Positions 916 to 7,744 of a stretch of DNA of 64,000 nt are shown piece after piece. A program made the translations under genes and the position numbers. The first letter of the stretch is position 1, and each line of letters starts with the position of its first letter. The DNA lies in the NCBI RefSeq assembly GCF_003864295.1, contig NZ_BDQK01000013.1, positions 1,004,501 through 1,068,500 on the forward strand, in the 5' to 3' direction. The DNA comes from Aphanothece sacrum FPU1. GTDB taxonomy: Bacteria; Cyanobacteriota; Cyanobacteriia; Cyanobacteriales; Microcystaceae. The notes below the pieces were generated by a model. That model was not told the origin of the DNA and did not search any database. It saw only the letters and a list, made by a program, of their open reading frames with translations.

Positions 916-1578
916 CTAAAGCAAATCTTCTAAAGTGGCGGCAACAACTTGATGATTAGAATCTTCTCGAAGTTGACTCAAAGCTTCCTTGACTTGGGGA
1001 CTATCAAACCGCTTTAAAGCGTAGGCAACTTGCCGACGTATTCTTTCAGATTGTGAACCAACTAATGCCAATAGTTGGGATAATGCCGCTTCTTGTTGCC
1101 TAGTTTCGGTTAAGGTACCAAGTGCTTGCACAGCAGCTTCTTGAATGATAATATCTTCATCTGCTAAACCTTCCAGACAAACCTCAAAAAGTTCGCTGTG
1201 GCACTCTAAATCACCTAATGCTGCCATAATACTGCGACGTACCAGCCAGTGATCATCCTGAATAAAAGTTAGCACTAAATGAGATGCAGCGCACTTGCCA
1301 AAGAGGGAAAGAGAATTTGCTGCTTCTGCCCTCACATTGGGTGTATTATCAAATTTCATAATTTCCAACAGTGCAGCAAAGGATTCGGCAGTTTGTTGTT
1401 TACCCAATCCCATACTAACAAAGGAACGCACTAAAAATTCTGGATCATTAAGTTTACTTGTTAATAGGGGAACTGCAATCTCCGGTGGGTAGTCTTTTAG
1501 AGAAGAAATCCCTTTAAGTCTATACTGAAAATCAGAATTATTTAGAGAAGTTTCGATTTCGTGAATATTCATAAACAA
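916..1578 (-). CDS. HEAT-repeat protein of the NblB / phycobilin lyase-like family
   Basis: A 220-residue protein built of helical HEAT-like repeats (for example DPEFLVRSFVSMGLGK, TPNVRAEAANSLSLFG, DHWLVRRSIMAALGDL and DEDIIIQEAAVQALG, each about 30 residues). This family includes the CpcE/CpcF-type bilin lyases, the CpeY/CpeZ lyase-chaperones and NblB, which helps detach bilins during phycobilisome breakdown. The length is close to NblB, and the gene faces the nblA pair, which favours NblB. The nearby cpe genes leave a CpeZ-like role open. A second in-frame ATG two codons downstream (1572) gives MNIHEIE and may be the true start. Family confident, exact function not. Confidence 0.65.
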   Translation of the reverse strand: MFMNIHEIETSLNNSDFQYRLKGISSLKDYPPEIAVPLLTSKLNDPEFLVRSFVSMGLGKQQTAESFAALLEIMKFDNTPNVRAEAANSLSLFGKCAASHLVLTFIQDDHWLVRRSIMAALGDLECHSELFEVCLEGLADEDIIIQEAAVQALGTLTETRQQEAALSQLLALVGSQSERIRRQVAYALKRFDSPQVKEALSQLREDSNHQVVAATLEDLL

Positions 1579-1660: not shown

Positions 1661-2029
1661 CTAATTGCTTTCATCAAATCGAGTCTTAAAACTGCCATAT
1701 TTGAACCAATAATGATGTAATTCATGGTTATTTTTTTGTAAACTTCCTTTTGCTTGATAGAGAATCACTTGTCGATGATTTCCCATCCAAACTCGTTTGA
1801 CAGCTTCGACAGAAATTAAACATCCTCCTAAACTATTAAGACATTGCTCAAATCTTTCAACTGCTGGATAATCTAGGGTTTCAAAAATCACAAATTTATC
1901 AGAAAAAATTAGGTGACGACTGCGAATCCAAGCTTGCATTTTTTTACTAGCTATTGGGGGTAGCATATTAATTAAACTTGAATTGAAATCAATATTTTGG
2001 GGGTTTTCTTTAGTCAATTGGTTAATCAT
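1661..2029 (-). CDS. cpeR: CpeR-type activator of phycoerythrin genes
   Basis: A small protein resembling CpeR, the activator needed for phycoerythrin and pebAB expression in chromatically acclimating cyanobacteria. The recognisable core starts at MLPPIASKKMQAWIRSRH and runs through GGCLISVEAVKRVWMGNHRQ to HHYWFKYGSFKTR at the C-terminus. The start is uncertain: the frame reaches back to a TTG at 2068; an ATG at 2029 gives 122 residues; an ATG at 1966 gives about 101 residues beginning at MLPP. No good ribosome-binding site decides between them. The gene lies 3' of cpeC-cpcL-cpeD on the same strand, matching cpeC-cpcG2-cpeR operons in group II chromatic acclimators. A hairpin sits in the gap behind cpeD, so read-through or a separate promoter is possible. 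Confidence 0.75.
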   Translation of the reverse strand: MINQLTKENPQNIDFNSSLINMLPPIASKKMQAWIRSRHLIFSDKFVIFETLDYPAVERFEQCLNSLGGCLISVEAVKRVWMGNHRQVILYQAKGSLQKNNHELHHYWFKYGSFKTRFDESN

Positions 2030-2365
2030 TTTTGACAATTTTAGCGCAAATTTGCTAAGAAAAATCAAGAGCGATTTATCCTATTCGCTCTAGATAAAGT
2101 AGGAGATACAAAACTTAAATAAAAAACCATGTAAAGATTTTAAGAAACTAACCATCTTTACCAGATTGATTTTAGAGGGATTAATTTTGATGCCAAATCC
2201 CTACATATAGATTAATTCAGCAGCAGGGGCTGAATAATATTCAGCCCGTACAAAACTCAGAAGTAAAAACCTTGAAACTGGATAATTACCAATAGTTAAT
2301 AGTTCATTATCAATTATTAATTATTAATTATCCATTGTTGAAGTTAGTTATGTTGAAAAATTGTT
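2030..2365 (-). other. Gap between cpeD and cpeR with a hairpin
   Basis: No gene is visible. A strong hairpin, GGGCTGAA-TAATA-TTCAGCCC, occupies 2227-2247. It has no following T-run and may attenuate transcription from cpeD into cpeR. The stretch near 2305-2340 is low-complexity ATTATTA repeat ending in TTATCCATTGTTG. Confidence 0.5.
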
Positions 2366-3133
2366 TCAAGAAACTTCTGTGATACTGACAATGGTTCCGC
2401 CAGTGCGTTGAATACGCTGAATTTGGGGAGTCATTTTCCCACCAGAAACAAGGTATTCAGTGGTACTAATTCGGCGAGGACTATCAAATTTAGACCCCTT
2501 AACCAAAATTTTGAAAGTTTTTTCGGTAGCATCTTTGTAAGGACTAATCCGACCACCTGTACTGGGTAAGGTAATCTTATTACCGCTATTCCCTGCCACC
2601 ACATCGACTAAACGAGAAGCAGTAAAAGCACTATCAACCCCAGCATATCCCTGATACAGAGATAAAGTACGATTGTAACCGACTTGCTTTTGTCCTACTT
2701 GACTTTTAGCACCTTGATAATAAGGAACGATATTTTCCCCAAATGTATCCTGATACTCGTTGCTATCGAGGTAAGAATCGATTTCTGCATCGTATCCTTC
2801 TGAGATACAGCGACAAATATGCTCAGACAGTTCAGTTTGGTCTAAGGGAGCGCGACCTAACAAATGTTTAAAGTTTAACTCAACAAAACGGTAGGGAGCG
2901 CAAGATTCAAAATACCGACCACGATAAAAGTCAGATTTAGCCACAGCGCGGACAAATTCCCGTACGGTTATTGCCCCATTACATAACTGAGATTCAGCAG
3001 TAGTCAGCCGTTCGCTTTCCATGACATGGGGATTACCCAAAACTTGCTTATAAACGGCACGAATTACAGCCTCTTTATCATTAAGGCTGCTAATAGCTCG
3101 AAGTTCAACTGGCGTATCTAAAACAACACTCAT
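2366..3133 (-). CDS. cpeD: Phycoerythrin-associated rod linker CpeD
   Basis: A 255-residue rod linker with an N-terminal phycobilisome linker domain (about residues 20-150, including AVYKQVLGNPHVMESERL, ITVREFVRAVAKSDFYR and FVELNFKHLLGRAP). A C-terminal CpcD-like domain (about 200-255) contains KFDSPRRISTTEYLVSGG and ends IQRTGGTIVSITEVS. The ESQLCNGAITVREF and SPRRISTTEY wording is typical of CpeD rather than CpcC. The frame extends upstream to 3193, but MSVVLDTP at 3133 is preceded by AGGAG at good spacing and matches family N-termini, so it was chosen. It is the third gene of the cpeC operon, 85 bases after cpcL. Confidence 0.82.
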   Translation of the reverse strand: MSVVLDTPVELRAISSLNDKEAVIRAVYKQVLGNPHVMESERLTTAESQLCNGAITVREFVRAVAKSDFYRGRYFESCAPYRFVELNFKHLLGRAPLDQTELSEHICRCISEGYDAEIDSYLDSNEYQDTFGENIVPYYQGAKSQVGQKQVGYNRTLSLYQGYAGVDSAFTASRLVDVVAGNSGNKITLPSTGGRISPYKDATEKTFKILVKGSKFDSPRRISTTEYLVSGGKMTPQIQRIQRTGGTIVSITEVS

Positions 3134-3218
3134 TGAGATTCTCCTACAAAATAGATAACAATTGAAAAAGCACCCAACTCTGCCTGCAAGCAATACAGCG
3201 CGGGCTTTTTAGCCTCAC

Positions 3219-3971
3219 CTAAAGGGAAATAATGCCCCAAGCGGCTAAAGCGGTAGCAATTACACCTAATGTCAAAAGTCCAGCACCCGTAAAGGTAATG
3301 ATTTTACCCGCTAAAATTAACCCAGCCGGATAAGGTGGTTTTTGCCATTGCCAACGAGGTGCAAGTAAATCGCGCATTCCTGCAAAATAGCCCATTGCTT
3401 CCAATTTCTGACGATGTTCTTCCCCATAACGAGGCATCCGCGCAAAGGGTAACTCTCCTAGAGTACGCTGAGGCAAAATGCGTCGCCGTTGGTAAGGAAC
3501 CGTATCGTAACCAAAATTGGTTAGATACTCGTCACTATTGAGCAAATCATCCACAAACTCCTGTAAACCCTTGCTAGCTAATACCATTGACCAAGCAATT
3601 TTTTCTCGTTCATGGTAAACATCCCGCCCCAAAACTCGTTGGACGCACATTTGTACAAAGCGATAATTATTATTCGGTTCGTAATTGCGCCAACGAAAAC
3701 AGTCAGATAACAGTAAAGCGCGAATAAAATCTCGCACCGTTATTTGACGATTTTTTAGCTGAGATTCCAAGGCTTTTTGGCGGTTGCTGGAGATTATCTG
3801 TTGCTCGTTGAAAATCTGACGATATGCCGCCCAAATCAATTCATTTGCGTCTGTGGGAGAGAATAGTTTCTCCCCCGTATAAATTCTGGGTTGTTCATCC
3901 CCAGGGATTTCATAAGCAGCAACTCGGTGATTTTGGCTTTTAGGTGAATAATCTAGTAGAGGAATAGTCAT
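3219..3971 (-). CDS. cpcL: CpcL (CpcG2)-type membrane-anchored rod linker
   Basis: A 250-residue linker that starts [14 protein letters not shown] like CpcG rod-core linkers and has the linker domain ([58 protein letters not shown]). Instead of the usual core-binding tail it ends in a hydrophobic segment of about 37 residues (214-250: [19 protein letters not shown]). That tail defines CpcL/CpcG2, which anchors rod-only phycobilisomes to the thylakoid and feeds photosystem I. The frame reaches 4001, but the ATG at 3971 matches the family N-terminus. It lies 42 bases after cpeC and before cpeD in the same operon. Confidence 0.88.
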
Positions 3972-4013
3972 CTTTAAAGTCTTTATGCTGAAATTACGCA
4001 CATTAGACGGTTT

Positions 4014-4892
4014 TTAGTTGACAGGAGTAATACTGGCAATGACTCCGCCTTGTTGGTGAATACGTTGATATTCTTGGGAAAGTCTGTCAAACGGTACTAG
4101 ATAAACCTGGTTACTGCGACGAAATTTGGAGACTCGGTTAACCTTACCTGAAGGACTATAGCCACTTACTTCGATACGGAAAACTTTACCTTCGTCACCT
4201 GCGCCAACACCTTGAGGACCTTTAGCACCCCGACTTCTTTCTTGGAATGACCAACCATCGCCAATTGCACCACCAGAAGGGGGAATTATGGTTAAGGGGG
4301 TTTCCTGAATGACGTATTTGTTCAAAACGGGAGTTTTGCCCGAAATACTGCCTTTAAAATCGCTACTAGAAGCACCGCGCAGCATAGCAAACATATGGGT
4401 AAAACCAACCATAGTTTGTCCTGGTTGGGTTTTGTAACCTCGGAAATAGGGAACGATATTTTCTCCGTAGGCATTTTGATATTCATCGCTATTGAGGTAG
4501 GAATCAATTTCTGCCTCAAATCCTTCTGTATCTAAAATGGTACTGTGCGCTCTCATTTCTTCTAAGTCAACGGGAGTACGACCAAGAAGATGTTTGAAAT
4601 TGAGTTCAATAAAGCGATAACGAGGACAAGTATCGAAAAAGCGGGAACTGTAAGCATTAGATTTGGCTAAAGCGCGAACAAACTCACGCACGCTTAATTC
4701 TCCCCGTTTAAATTGGGATTCAGGTATGGTTGCTCTTTCGCTTTCCATGACGTAAGCATTCCCCAAAACTTGCCGATAAACGGCACGAATTATGGTTTCT
4801 ACTTCTTCTTCTGAACGTCCAGGGATCAATTCTAACCTGGGAGTTTCTTCAAATAAAGCAACCCCCAATTGGGAGGCGGGTCCAAATACCAT
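4014..4892 (-). CDS. cpeC: Phycoerythrin-associated rod linker CpeC
   Basis: A 292-residue linker joining phycoerythrin hexamers in the rod. It starts MVFGPASQLGVALFEETP, has the linker domain at about residues 28-155 (ESQFKRGELSVREFVRALA, IELNFKHLLGRTPVDLEE) and a C-terminal CpcD-like domain at about 235-292 (SGKVNRVSKFRRSNQVYLV, QQGGVIASITPVN). The KRGELSVREF wording and length fit CpeC. GGAG lies nine bases before the ATG. It heads the operon cpeC-cpcL-cpeD(-cpeR). A direct-repeat G-box about 65 bases upstream predicts activation by the green-light regulator CcaR. No cpeBA structural genes are in the window. Confidence 0.87.
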   Translation of the reverse strand: MVFGPASQLGVALFEETPRLELIPGRSEEEVETIIRAVYRQVLGNAYVMESERATIPESQFKRGELSVREFVRALAKSNAYSSRFFDTCPRYRFIELNFKHLLGRTPVDLEEMRAHSTILDTEGFEAEIDSYLNSDEYQNAYGENIVPYFRGYKTQPGQTMVGFTHMFAMLRGASSSDFKGSISGKTPVLNKYVIQETPLTIIPPSGGAIGDGWSFQERSRGAKGPQGVGAGDEGKVFRIEVSGYSPSGKVNRVSKFRRSNQVYLVPFDRLSQEYQRIHQQGGVIASITPVN

Positions 4893-4958
4893 TTTCTAAG
4901 TCTCCATAACTTACCAATGTTAAATATTACCATACAACAAGTAAGGAAAAGGGTGAGG

Positions 4959-4980
4959 ATTTGGTAAAGAAATCGGAAAG
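4959..4980 (-). promoter_or_regulatory. Tandem CcaR-type G-box upstream of cpeC
   Basis: Read on the minus strand there are two adjoining 11-mers. The first, CTTTCCGATTT (4980-4970), is a perfect match to the G-box CTTTNCNATTT. The second, CTTTACCAAAT (4969-4959), matches seven of nine fixed positions. In Synechocystis and Nostoc punctiforme the response regulator CcaR binds this kind of direct repeat to activate cpcG2 or the cpeC operon in green light. A TAATAT -10 candidate lies about 29 bases downstream (4929-4924). Confidence 0.75.
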
Positions 4981-5390: not shown

Positions 5391-5975
5391 TCAAGCTTGA
5401 TTAAACTGTTTTAACGCACTAATTAAATGCTCAAAATAGGGAGATAATCCATCTTTTTCTTCCTTACTAAATTGCTGTAAACTAACCATCTTTAATTCTT
5501 CTAATCCGTAGATCATTGCTGACAAAGGAACCTGCAATTCTTGATAAAGTAACTGCATATTTTTGAGTCCTTCTTGACTCGTAAATTCAGATTTTTTTCC
5601 AGCAATTCCATAGGTAATACAGCGTAAAAAATGCCAAAAATCTCGCCAACAAGCTTCTGCACGTTCTGGGGGATAAAGATCATTCCCAGGGGCAGTAATA
5701 TTAGGGAAATGAATTAATAATTGTTCTCTGGCCTCAGCCACAAGATTAGAGGCTTGCTCCCGTAATAATCTTGATTTTTCTCCCGATTTTGCCGTATCAG
5801 GAGCAAGATTTTTCAGCATTTCTAAATCTTCATCAGTTAAATATCTTCCTTCATCATCAGCCTGTTGAAAAATGCTAATTACTTCGTCTGAATATAGGTC
5901 TTTCCAAGTAGCAAAACTAACAATTCTTGCTAGAGGAATTAACTGTTTTGCTCTGTCGCTTAATTGCATACTCAT
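5391..5975 (-). CDS. Orphan phycobilisome-family protein, allophycocyanin-like, with conserved bilin cysteine
   Basis: A 194-residue globin-like phycobiliprotein homologue. After an N-terminal extension of about 35 residues it follows the allophycocyanin pattern: EGRYLTDEDLEMLKN, then ITAPGNDLYPPERAEACW, RDFWHFLRCITYGIAG and LYQELQVPLSAMIYGLEELK. Cys109 with the following W-R-D sits exactly where bilins are attached in alpha and beta subunits (C-x-R-D), so it may carry a chromophore. It is longer than normal subunits (about 160-175 residues) and not paired with a partner gene. It lies between the cpeC operon and divergent pebAB. It is not one of the usual Apc, Cpc or Cpe subunits that I recognise; its role is unknown. 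Confidence 0.7.
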   Translation of the reverse strand: MSMQLSDRAKQLIPLARIVSFATWKDLYSDEVISIFQQADDEGRYLTDEDLEMLKNLAPDTAKSGEKSRLLREQASNLVAEAREQLLIHFPNITAPGNDLYPPERAEACWRDFWHFLRCITYGIAGKKSEFTSQEGLKNMQLLYQELQVPLSAMIYGLEELKMVSLQQFSKEEKDGLSPYFEHLISALKQFNQA

Positions 5976-6240
5976 GAAATTTAACTAATCCTTACTTGCC
6001 GATTACTTATTGGATTTTAGTAGGTTAACAAACTCATAATTGCCTAGATTAGACTAAAATTAAGAGATTTTCTGTTAATATTTATTACGATCTTCCTTTT
6101 GTCGTCTTCCCTGAACTTCACAGAAGTAGTAAGCTGTGTAACGAAATATTACTTAGTTAGTCAAAAAAGAGACGAGACTTAGGGGACTCATTTATTCTCA
6201 TATTCTCAAGGAGAGATTTTAAGGAGCTAGATTTTAATCT

Positions 6241-6975
6241 ATGTTTAAGCCGTTTCAGCAATTTCTAGAAAAAGAACTGTTTGGGCGTTTTGATTTACAG
6301 AGTCGTCCCATTCCTTCTGGCTTAGAATCTTTGGTGAGTGAAAGAGGCAAAAATCCTGCCACAATTCAAAGTTGGTGTTATGAATGCCCTGAATTACGCA
6401 AAATTCGCTACACTTACATCGATGCAGGTGAAACGGCGCAAATTTTTAATAGTGTTATCTACCCTAACTATAATTACGATTTGCCCTTACTAGGAATTGA
6501 CTTTTTAGCGTTTGGACAGAAGAAAATATTAGTAGTTTTAGATTTTCAGCCTTTATTTCGTGAGCAAGATTATCTAGATAAATATATAGAACCAATGAGT
6601 GCAATTCGAGATAAATATAAAGATTTGGCTCAAGATTTAGAAATGAAGTTTTATGATGCTAATCAGTATTTTTCTAAAAATTTGCTCTTTGCTAAAACTG
6701 ATGCAGAAACGGTTATAAAACGCTTATTTCCTGCTTATCAAGAATATGTCCAATTATATTGGCAACTCATAGAACAAGCTTCTCCTGTGACTACTATAGA
6801 AGCAAGTCAACGTATTATTAAGGCACAAAAAGATTATGATCAGTATAGTGCCGAACGTGATCCAGCATCAGGATTATTTAGTAGTTATTTTGGACACGAA
6901 TGGTCAGAGAGATTTCTCTACGAGTTCTTGTTTGAAGATGCTATTCCCTTAGCGGTAACTGCTGGAGTAAAATAA
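6241..6975 (+). CDS. pebA: 15,16-dihydrobiliverdin:ferredoxin oxidoreductase PebA
   Basis: A 244-residue ferredoxin-dependent bilin reductase. PebA reduces biliverdin IXalpha at C15 to 15,16-dihydrobiliverdin, the first step toward phycoerythrobilin. The family core is clear: [45 protein letters not shown], and the C-terminal [19 protein letters not shown]. It is followed after 19 bases by pebB in the standard pebAB order, which supports the assignment over other reductases. The upstream 265 bases should contain the promoter; in Fremyella this operon depends on CpeR, and a cpeR gene is present about 4 kb away. Confidence 0.92.
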
Positions 6976-6994: not shown

Positions 6995-7744
6995 ATGACT
7001 CTCTATCAACCTTTTTTAGATTACGCGATCGCCCTTCTCAATGAACGACTTGAACTCGAACCCTATCCTATTCCTATAGGCTTTGAAAGCAAGGAATGTA
7101 CAACAGGCAAGGGAAAAAGGGAGCAATTAGTTGTTACGACGAGTCATGCTTTTAAATCCCCCAAACTTCGGCAAATTCGAGCCGCTCATGTTGAAGGTGG
7201 GGATTCTTTACAAGTTCTCAATTTCGTGATTTTCCCGCAATTAACTTATGATTTGCCGTTTTTTGGGGCAGATTTAGTTACTTTGCCTGGAGGACATTTA
7301 ATTGCCTTAGATATGCAGCCTCTTTTCCACAATGAGGCTTATCAAAAGCAATATAGTGAGCCTATTTTACCGATTTGGCAGAGATATCAAGAAGATTTAC
7401 CCTGGGGTGGTGATTTTCCTGAAGAAGCGAAAGCCTTCTTTTCCCCTGCCTTTCTTTGGACTCGACCGCAAGAGACAAAAATGGTAGAAACTCGCGTTTT
7501 TGAGGCATTTAAAGACTATCTCCAGGCATATTTGGATTTTGTCCAACAGGCACAACCGATAACAGATAGTCAACGATTGGGAGAGATTCTTGAGGCACAA
7601 CAACGTTATCTTAACTATCGTGCCGCAAAAGATCCCGCTAGGGGTATGTTTACCCGCTTATATGGTGAAGAATGGACAGAAGAATATATTCACGGTTTCC
7701 TGTTTGATTTGGAACGCAGTTTAGCAGTAGATGATGTCAATTAA
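6995..7744 (+). CDS. pebB: Phycoerythrobilin:ferredoxin oxidoreductase PebB
   Basis: A 249-residue bilin reductase that converts 15,16-dihydrobiliverdin to phycoerythrobilin, probably by direct transfer from PebA. Family features are [52 protein letters not shown] and the C-terminal [19 protein letters not shown]. The N-terminus [19 protein letters not shown] fits PebB. It lies 19 bases after pebA and its last 14 bases overlap the next small gene, so the three are likely one transcript. Together they supply the chromophore for the phycoerythrin rods implied by cpeC and cpeD. Confidence 0.92.

Follow-up and report, generated by a model that had tools for sequence, protein, structure and literature searches.

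Which light signal controls a phycobilisome linker operon that joins two phycoerythrin linkers to a rod linker of the CpcL type, and which rods would its products build? The question is raised by a 64-kilobase (kb) window of Aphanothece sacrum FPU1 (NZ_BDQK01000013.1), the whole stretch of DNA analyzed here, to which all unprefixed coordinates refer. On its minus strand, from 4980 to 916, a CcaR G-box is followed by cpeC, cpcL, cpeD, cpeR and a gene encoding a HEAT-repeat protein. The operon is known biology in a new arrangement. In our view it is probably the output of the green-light system CcaS/CcaR of this genome, an instance of type II chromatic acclimation (CA2) with control of CpcL, in which CpeR would feed back on ccaR. 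The features of the operon are (nt, nucleotides; aa, amino acids):

4959–4980, minus strand: CcaR G-box CTTTCCGATTTCTTTACCAAAT, 66 nt before the cpeC start
4924–4929, minus strand: possible −10 element TAATAT, at G-box positions 52–57
4014–4892, minus strand: cpeC, phycoerythrin rod linker of 292 aa, with PBS_linker_poly and CpcD domains
3219–3971, minus strand: cpcL, rod-membrane linker of 250 aa with a hydrophobic C-terminus, assigned by structure match and tree
2366–3133, minus strand: cpeD, phycoerythrin rod linker of 255 aa, with PBS_linker_poly and CpcD domains
2227–2247, minus strand: hairpin with a 9-bp stem in the cpeD–cpeR gap, lacking a T-run and not terminator-like in our scan
1661–1966, minus strand: cpeR, 101 aa, in a frame open upstream to 2068 with an in-frame ATG at 2029
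916–1572, minus strand: HEAT-repeat gene (HEAT_2, E 8.7e-27), with its ATG at 1572

The linker operon and its CcaR promoter

The three linkers all possess the PBS_linker_poly domain (Pfam, E 1.1e-50, 5.8e-47 and 4.4e-51), and the outer two, CpeC and CpeD, additionally carry the CpcD domain, which is absent from the middle one. CpeC and CpeD are 83–85% and 86–87% identical to the first and second linkers, respectively, of the cpeC-cpeD(-cpeE)-cpeR operons in three genomes (G192, G286 and G296). Over its full length (query 1–250), hydrophobic tail included, the middle linker matches the solved structure of the “Photosystem I-associated linker protein CpcL” (8hfq_n, E 2.4e-114), and it combines a linker domain with a hydrophobic C-terminal helix in the absence of a CpcD domain. 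Its C-terminal hydropathy of 2.11 falls into the upper group of a bimodal set of 69 distinct CpcL/CpcG proteins, 47 of which score 2.0 or above and 22 score 0.87 or below. In a tree of these proteins, whose bootstrap is not fully settled, the two hydropathy groups separate at 100/100. The window protein is located on the CpcL side, beside the CpcLs of G056, G019 and G030 with modest support (81/79), and each of these three genomes has a G-box and a ccaR adjoining the operon. In view of its similarity to the solved CpcL, the window CpcL may likewise associate with photosystem I.

The gaps between the genes measure 42 nt (cpeC–cpcL), 85 nt (cpcL–cpeD), 399 nt (cpeD–cpeR) and 88 nt (cpeR–HEAT). 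Transcription probably runs through to cpeR, although the 399-nt gap with its hairpin may interrupt it. The protein encoded behind cpeD is presumably CpeR, a name given by gene context, since none of the library models identifies it; Pfam, NCBIfam and PHROGs yield nothing for it at 0.001, and its profile finds no relative among PDB sequences at E 1. Relatives occur in 180 of the 388 genomes of the order that were searched (all such counts are among the matches listed), repeatedly behind cpeC/cpeD/cpeS/cpeT, and the single copy in this genome belongs to the same sequence family and is likewise encoded with phycoerythrin linker genes. In the 122-aa frame most alignments begin around Met22, which makes 1661–1966 (101 aa) the probable coding region. 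The HEAT gene probably closes the operon, and relatives 72–74% identical lie directly 3′ of cpeR in G192, G286 and G296. It may encode a protein of the phycoerythrin lyase or chaperone class; the identification as NblB was rejected (106.5 bits against a model cut-off of 300), and the gene is left without a name. As a separate observation, the cpeD–cpeR gap (2030–2365, minus strand) holds an AT-rich, dispersed short repeat of ~40 nt with at least 27 further matches in the genome, some of them adjoining.

Position 4980, the upper limit of the feature in the initial annotation of this DNA, is the first base of the G-box. The 22-nt CcaR G-box of Synechocystis PCC 6803 is given in the Methods of PMC8256508, and the window site is identical to it at 19 of 22 positions. 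A search of the whole genome with the PCC 6803 sequence, allowing up to 3 mismatches, returned one match, the site before cpeC, and the reversed-pattern control returned none. A matrix for the 60-nt promoter, built from 29 other promoters hand-chosen from 48 strict sites, gives the window site 64.5, within the range of its training sites (49.0–82.3), and the next window position −3.3. Promoter positions 18–60, which played no part in locating the site, alone rank it first among 127,880 positions (32.9, next 9.5). With the 22-nt matrix, no comparable G-box was found in the 600 nt before the genome's own cpeB, cpeS, cpeY, ccaS and pebA (best 2.5). The phycobilisome operon is thus preceded by a CcaR G-box promoter, the arrangement of CA2 with CpcL. 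TAnnnT occurs at the offset of the possible −10 element in 15 of the 48 strict sites, window included, a weak support because the next commonest offset (38) is nearly as frequent (13 of 48). A relaxed G-box consensus was discarded in favor of the published 22-mer, having produced 3 window matches at 2 mismatches against 2.34 expected.

Both regulators are encoded on the same contig, with ccaR 591 kb from the operon and ccaS beyond it in the opposite direction, and both frames read intact. The proteins are 58–74% (CcaS) and 72–81% (CcaR) identical to those encoded at the G-box loci examined, and the pair at the G056 G-box locus reaches 74% and 81%, respectively. Control of the operon by CcaR is well supported at the sequence level. 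In passages of PMC12461855, CcaS/CcaR are described as acting on phycobilisome genes, with ccaS, ccaR and the target operon in one gene cluster; here the sensor and regulator genes are present in the genome and lie outside such a cluster. The GAF domain of CcaS matches RcaE (7ckv, E 3.2e-47), in keeping with its assignment as CcaS. The presence of both phycoerythrin and phycocyanin genes in the genome would also fit a type III-like control by RcaE/RcaC. We regard this alternative as very improbable, since the genome contains no L-box at up to 1 mismatch (0 matches) and the other CcaS-like GAF domains share at most 41% identity, 37% for the best-scoring one, in a comparison not made with RcaE itself. 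The initial annotation had described three linkers and cpeR in one leftward block, a hydrophobic CpcL-type anchor on the middle linker and control by green light. The domain matches and gene order uphold the first of these, the 8hfq_n alignment, hydropathy and tree the second, and the single well-formed CcaR promoter together with ccaS and ccaR argues for the third.

The rods served by the operon

Nine PBS_linker domains were found in the genome: two belong to phycocyanin-rod linkers beside cpcB, three to ApcE, sitting together in one 901-aa ApcE-like frame, one to CpcG, and three to the linkers of the operon. CpeC and CpeD are consequently the sole phycoerythrin linkers of the genome, and the window CpcL is its sole CpcL. 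The operon should therefore gate phycoerythrin on all rods, and its two phycoerythrin linkers presumably must serve CpcG rods as well. The location of cpcL between both linker genes, under one shared G-box promoter, would also fit an antenna specific to photosystem I, with CpeC and CpeD built onto CpcL rods only. Such an antenna is improbable: it would leave CpcG rods without linked phycoerythrin, and G192, G286 and G296 carry 83–87% identical CpeC/CpeD in operons that contain no cpcL. The operon had been annotated as building a phycoerythrin rod linked to photosystem I; of this claim the CpcL anchor stands, and the dedication of the rod to photosystem I was overstated.

CpeR, a shared promoter motif and the position of ccaR

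The phycoerythrin genes that CpeR may act on lie at two places, next to the operon (pebA-pebB) and on the same contig ~587 kb away (locus L118, with its own numbering), where cpeB-cpeA-cpeY-cpeZ form a series with cpeS-cpeT divergent from it beside cpeB. CpeA, CpeB and CpeY pass the NCBIfam cut-offs; the genes taken to encode CpeZ, CpeS and CpeT were named from gene context. The features concerned are:

6140–6175, plus strand: phycoerythrin (PE) box, candidate CpeR-dependent element, before pebA (score 25.9)
6241–6975, plus strand: pebA (NF009720, 373.6 bits, cut-off 263)
6995–7744, plus strand: pebB (NF009723, 475.1 bits, cut-off 327)
L118:13214–13249, minus strand: PE box before cpeB (score 32.3)
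L118:8988–10270, minus strand: ccaR, whose start overlaps the cpeZ stop in a 4-base ATGA, with no gap

The PE box is a 36-nt motif common to the cpeB and pebA promoters, with a CTTTGT-N11-GAGAC core and a TTATTAC-like sequence before it. Its matrix derives from the 23 of 39 upstream regions, all from other genomes, in which the core pattern is present, and several of the pebA training sites are identical or near-copies. In the 64-kb window only one match exceeds 8, that before pebA, and 19 kb around cpeBA likewise contain one match, that before cpeB. In the DNA of this genome that was scanned (the window and loci L040, L052, L053 and L118), no PE box was found left of the window, around cpcBA or around cpcG, and none lies before cpeC in the window. 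A survey of 154 loci (2.36 Mb) yielded 35 distinct matches above 15, of which 34 precede pebA or cpeB (25 pebA, 8 cpeB and one more that proved to be cpeB, in L047); the remaining one is unexplained (L242:7237). The box is found in 33 of the 39 cpeB/pebA upstream regions tested, the weakest case (L199, 17.5) lying near the maximum of 60 random 64-kb sequences (16.3). As the training set was drawn from the same loci, only the genome's own sites and those lacking the core pattern count as independent.

The title of Cobley 2002, cited in PMC4443024, presents CpeR as required for cpeBA expression and as encoded in a linker operon. The occurrence of one motif before both pebA and cpeB, combined with this published role, suggests that CpeR acts at the PE box and points to a loop leading from CcaR through cpeR to cpeBA-cpeYZ-ccaR. 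The effect of CpeR on the nearby pebAB, proposed in the initial annotation, is plausible on the strength of the shared motif. No relevant report of a CpeR box was found in the literature searched. To our knowledge, no DNA target of CpeR has been described.

The position of ccaR would close the loop. Given its overlap with cpeZ, ccaR looks like the last gene of cpeBA-cpeYZ, and activation of that unit should then raise CcaR as well. None of the 29 other top-ranking CcaR loci showed a cpeZ within its reach of up to 1.5 kb on each side. The interval between ccaR and ccaS (L118:7486–8988) contains toxin-antitoxin-like genes (Gp49, E 2.3e-23; HTH_37, E 1.1e-16), which suggest rearrangement. A frame just below the DUF2281 cut-off lies in the same interval, and the gap before cpeY (L118:11640–11860, minus strand) contains repeated GTAGGGTGCGTTCCCTAACGCA-like units.

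From the genes, their positions, the single G-box and the shared motif we infer the following regulatory steps, rod composition and docking to photosystem I. In green light, CcaS would phosphorylate CcaR, which would bind the single G-box and drive transcription of cpeC-cpcL-cpeD, probably continuing into cpeR and the HEAT gene. CpcL would seat some rods on the membrane at photosystem I, and CpeC and CpeD would add phycoerythrin hexamers to these CpcL rods and to ordinary CpcG rods, as family knowledge of the three linkers suggests. CpeR would then activate cpeBA(-YZ) and pebAB, probably via the shared promoter motif, a step based on published CpeR work and the motif. Finally, as the gene position suggests, activation of cpeBA-cpeYZ would raise ccaR as well, resulting in a closed positive loop.

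Several points weigh against this scheme. Green-light induction of the operon is a prediction from sequence, and with the 22-nt matrix the G-box scores 26.9, under all 29 training sites (31.1–39.2), still far above the next window position (5.6). The 399-nt gap before cpeR, with its dispersed repeat and strong hairpin (2215–2260 folds at −17.8 kcal/mol, z −4.5, and 0 of 200 shuffles fold as low), may uncouple cpeR from the operon. The PE box was not found before 6 of the 39 pebA/cpeB genes, 2 of the 60 random 64-kb sequences passed the survey cut-off of 15, and the box is a candidate site for CpeR. Moreover, a gap of 351 nt separates cpeA from cpeY, and ccaR could thus have a promoter deaf to CpeR. 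A green-light operon without a loop is accordingly a possible, although not the favored, explanation: a constitutive promoter inside or upstream of cpeYZ would express ccaR, whose position would be a neutral by-product of the rearrangement to which the toxin-antitoxin-like genes point. The gapless ATGA overlap of cpeZ and ccaR and the PE box before cpeB argue instead for the loop.

A more specific form of the loop is a closed double-positive switch, in which CpeR would be a LAGLIDADG/WhiA-like activator at the 36-nt PE box of pebAB and cpeBA-cpeYZ-ccaR. We hold this version to be doubtful. It draws on an AlphaFold2 model of CpeR (43 aligned proteins, pLDDT 91.2, pTM 0.84), which predicts the order helix, two strands, helix, two strands, helix. 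In a second-look structural alignment, LAGLIDADG proteins occupy 37 of the 50 listed rows, many of them repeat entries; the best such match is 1ef0_A (Z 8.0, rmsd 2.5 Å over 87 residues), and the transcription factor WhiA (3hyj_A) aligns with Z 7.2 and rmsd 3.1 Å over 75 residues. Foldseek returned no match at E ≤0.001 for the model and ranked ribosomal S6 permutants first. Since a Z under 8 may mean a common arrangement only, the LAGLIDADG/WhiA-like fold is a lead. If the switch exists, colour acclimation would be sharp and possibly hysteretic, with phycoerythrin and photosystem I rods switching together. CcaS/CcaR acclimation has been described as a single sensor cluster that switches a single set of antenna genes. 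In A. sacrum, all phycoerythrin linkers and the photosystem I rod linker would depend on one promoter, and a downstream target would carry the regulator gene, which makes a memory of light colour testable. In addition, the sharp motif of cpeB and pebA offers a concrete site for asking how CpeR activates phycoerythrin genes.

Comparison with other G-box operons

A strict 17-base G-box is present in 45 of the 388 genomes (reversed control, 2 of 388). In 39 of the 45, a CcaR of at least 65% identity is encoded within 1.7 kb of the site, in all 39 on the strand opposite to the operon. The six exceptions comprise three sites with no phycobilisome gene behind them (G203, G121 and G195), two at contig ends (G165 and G192) and the A. 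sacrum genome, which is thereby the only one among 42 G-box operons whose ccaR is neither adjacent nor lost at a contig end. As a side observation, a further G-box in G153 shares its strand with another such regulator. The isolation of the A. sacrum ccaR, together with the slightly low score of the 22-nt box, would fit an operon that is constitutive or answers another signal, with a G-box left as a relic since ccaR moved. We find this improbable: a relic should decay, yet the 60-nt promoter scores within the range of the 29 others and the CcaS and CcaR frames are intact.

Operon contents behind the G-boxes were read from gene tables, and some contigs end inside the operon (e.g., G266 and G288). 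Among the 42 phycobilisome operons, 9 contain cpcL without a phycoerythrin gene, 5 are of a phycoerythrocyanin type (read from 65–67% CpcB-like matches), 15, including that of A. sacrum, combine a phycoerythrin linker or cpeR with cpcL, and 13 have a phycoerythrin linker or cpeR without cpcL. All four of cpeC, cpeD, cpcL and cpeR occur together in A. sacrum, G198, G236, G122, G333, G241 and probably G165, and cpcL-cpeD-cpeR follows the G-box in G067, G089, G107, G123 and G168, with Roseofilum among these five. The order cpeC-cpcL-cpeD-cpeR was found in A. sacrum only (1 of 42), and in none of 80 named CpcL loci, a set from which its own record was possibly left out. The initial annotation had called the insertion of cpeD between cpcL and cpeR a variant not seen described and had advised comparing gene orders across CcaS/CcaR strains. 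The five cpcL-cpeD-cpeR operons, and five others with all four genes in other orders, supply a precedent for the position of cpeD; the full order is unique. No printed description of cpeC-cpcL-cpeD-cpeR was found in the part of the specialist literature that was covered, and Figure 5 of PMC9415938 may draw similar arrangements.

Trees of the phycoerythrin linkers, made by a quick method from rows of at least 60% identity and at least 90% coverage, place the window CpeD with the linker operons of G192, G286 and G296 (support 95), none of which has a strict G-box there, and group CpeC with the same genomes (86; 83 with G192). Linkers from the remaining G-box phycoerythrin operons belong to other clades. 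These three relatives share the order cpeS-cpeT-cpeC-cpeD-(cpeE in two of three)-cpeR-HEAT, without cpcL, and after the HEAT gene carry a PBS-domain gene on the other strand and then pebAB; G192 has an additional second linker set behind a G-box. The simplest reading, with moderate tree support, is that cpeE disappeared from the main linker operon, cpcL was inserted and control passed to the G-box. A cluster uniting cpeA-cpeY-cpeZ, ccaR, a G-box, cpeC-cpeD-cpeR and ccaS, with ccaR convergent to cpeZ, persists in G023, a member of the same family, and the A. sacrum arrangement could stem from the breaking of such a cluster.

Among the closest systems, the operon of Nostoc punctiforme ATCC 29133 reportedly has the order cpeC-cpcG2-cpeR1. 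It resembles the present one as a CcaR operon with a phycoerythrin linker, cpcL (cpcG2) and cpeR1, whereas the A. sacrum operon has an additional cpeD, no ccaR or ccaS next to it, and the sole phycoerythrin linkers of the genome. A passage of PMC12461855 places phycoerythrin gene(s) and CpcL in the CcaR-controlled phycobilisome operon of N. punctiforme. Roseofilum halophilum BLCC-M91 and R. acuticapitatum BLCC-M154 (L224 and L232) share the G-box followed by cpcL-cpeD-cpeR, but have no cpeC in the operon and a divergent, adjoining ccaR. Symploca sp. SIO2C1 and SIO1C2 (L234 and L239) have cpeC, cpeD, cpcL and cpeR on the same strand behind a G-box, in the different order cpeC-cpeD-cpcL-cpeE-cpeS-cpeT-cpeR and likewise with a divergent, adjoining ccaR. 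The Fremyella diplosiphon operon cpeCDESTR, named in the title of Cobley 2002 (cited in PMC4443024), also unites cpeC, cpeD and cpeR in one linker operon; its name includes no cpcL, whereas cpeE, cpeS and cpeT are not part of the A. sacrum operon. Geminocystis NIES-3708 and NIES-3709 similarly have CcaS/CcaR with a phycoerythrin linker and cpeR, although the NIES-3708 operon is without CpcL and that of NIES-3709 is described as a cpeE-cpeR operon of the same structure (PMC4424290, PMC4417701). The Synechocystis cpcL locus (type CA1) shares the CcaR G-box, and CpcL is 68–69% identical in Synechocystis-type genomes, but no phycoerythrin gene was found there.

Some minor features remain. A stem AAAAAGCCC...GGGTGCTTTTT between cpcL and cpeD was dropped as a terminator because it is no better than shuffles (z 0.59), and no weight was given to the sigma-70 scan (20 found, 16.6 expected) or the terminator scan (9 found, 4.7 expected). 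One further gene separates the operon from pebAB:

5391–5975, minus strand: phycobilisome-domain protein of 194 aa (PF00502, E 1.5e-47)

It is listed here apart from the operon. The protein is weakly ApcA/ApcB-like, and relatives with 48–74% identity are encoded near pebAB, HEAT or cpe genes in many phycoerythrin genomes. Finally, the order pebA-pebB-cpcL recurs at other loci (L047, L107, L108, L226, L255 and others), often followed by cpcBA and without a strict G-box, which suggests that phycoerythrobilin synthesis and CpcL rods are connected in further ways.

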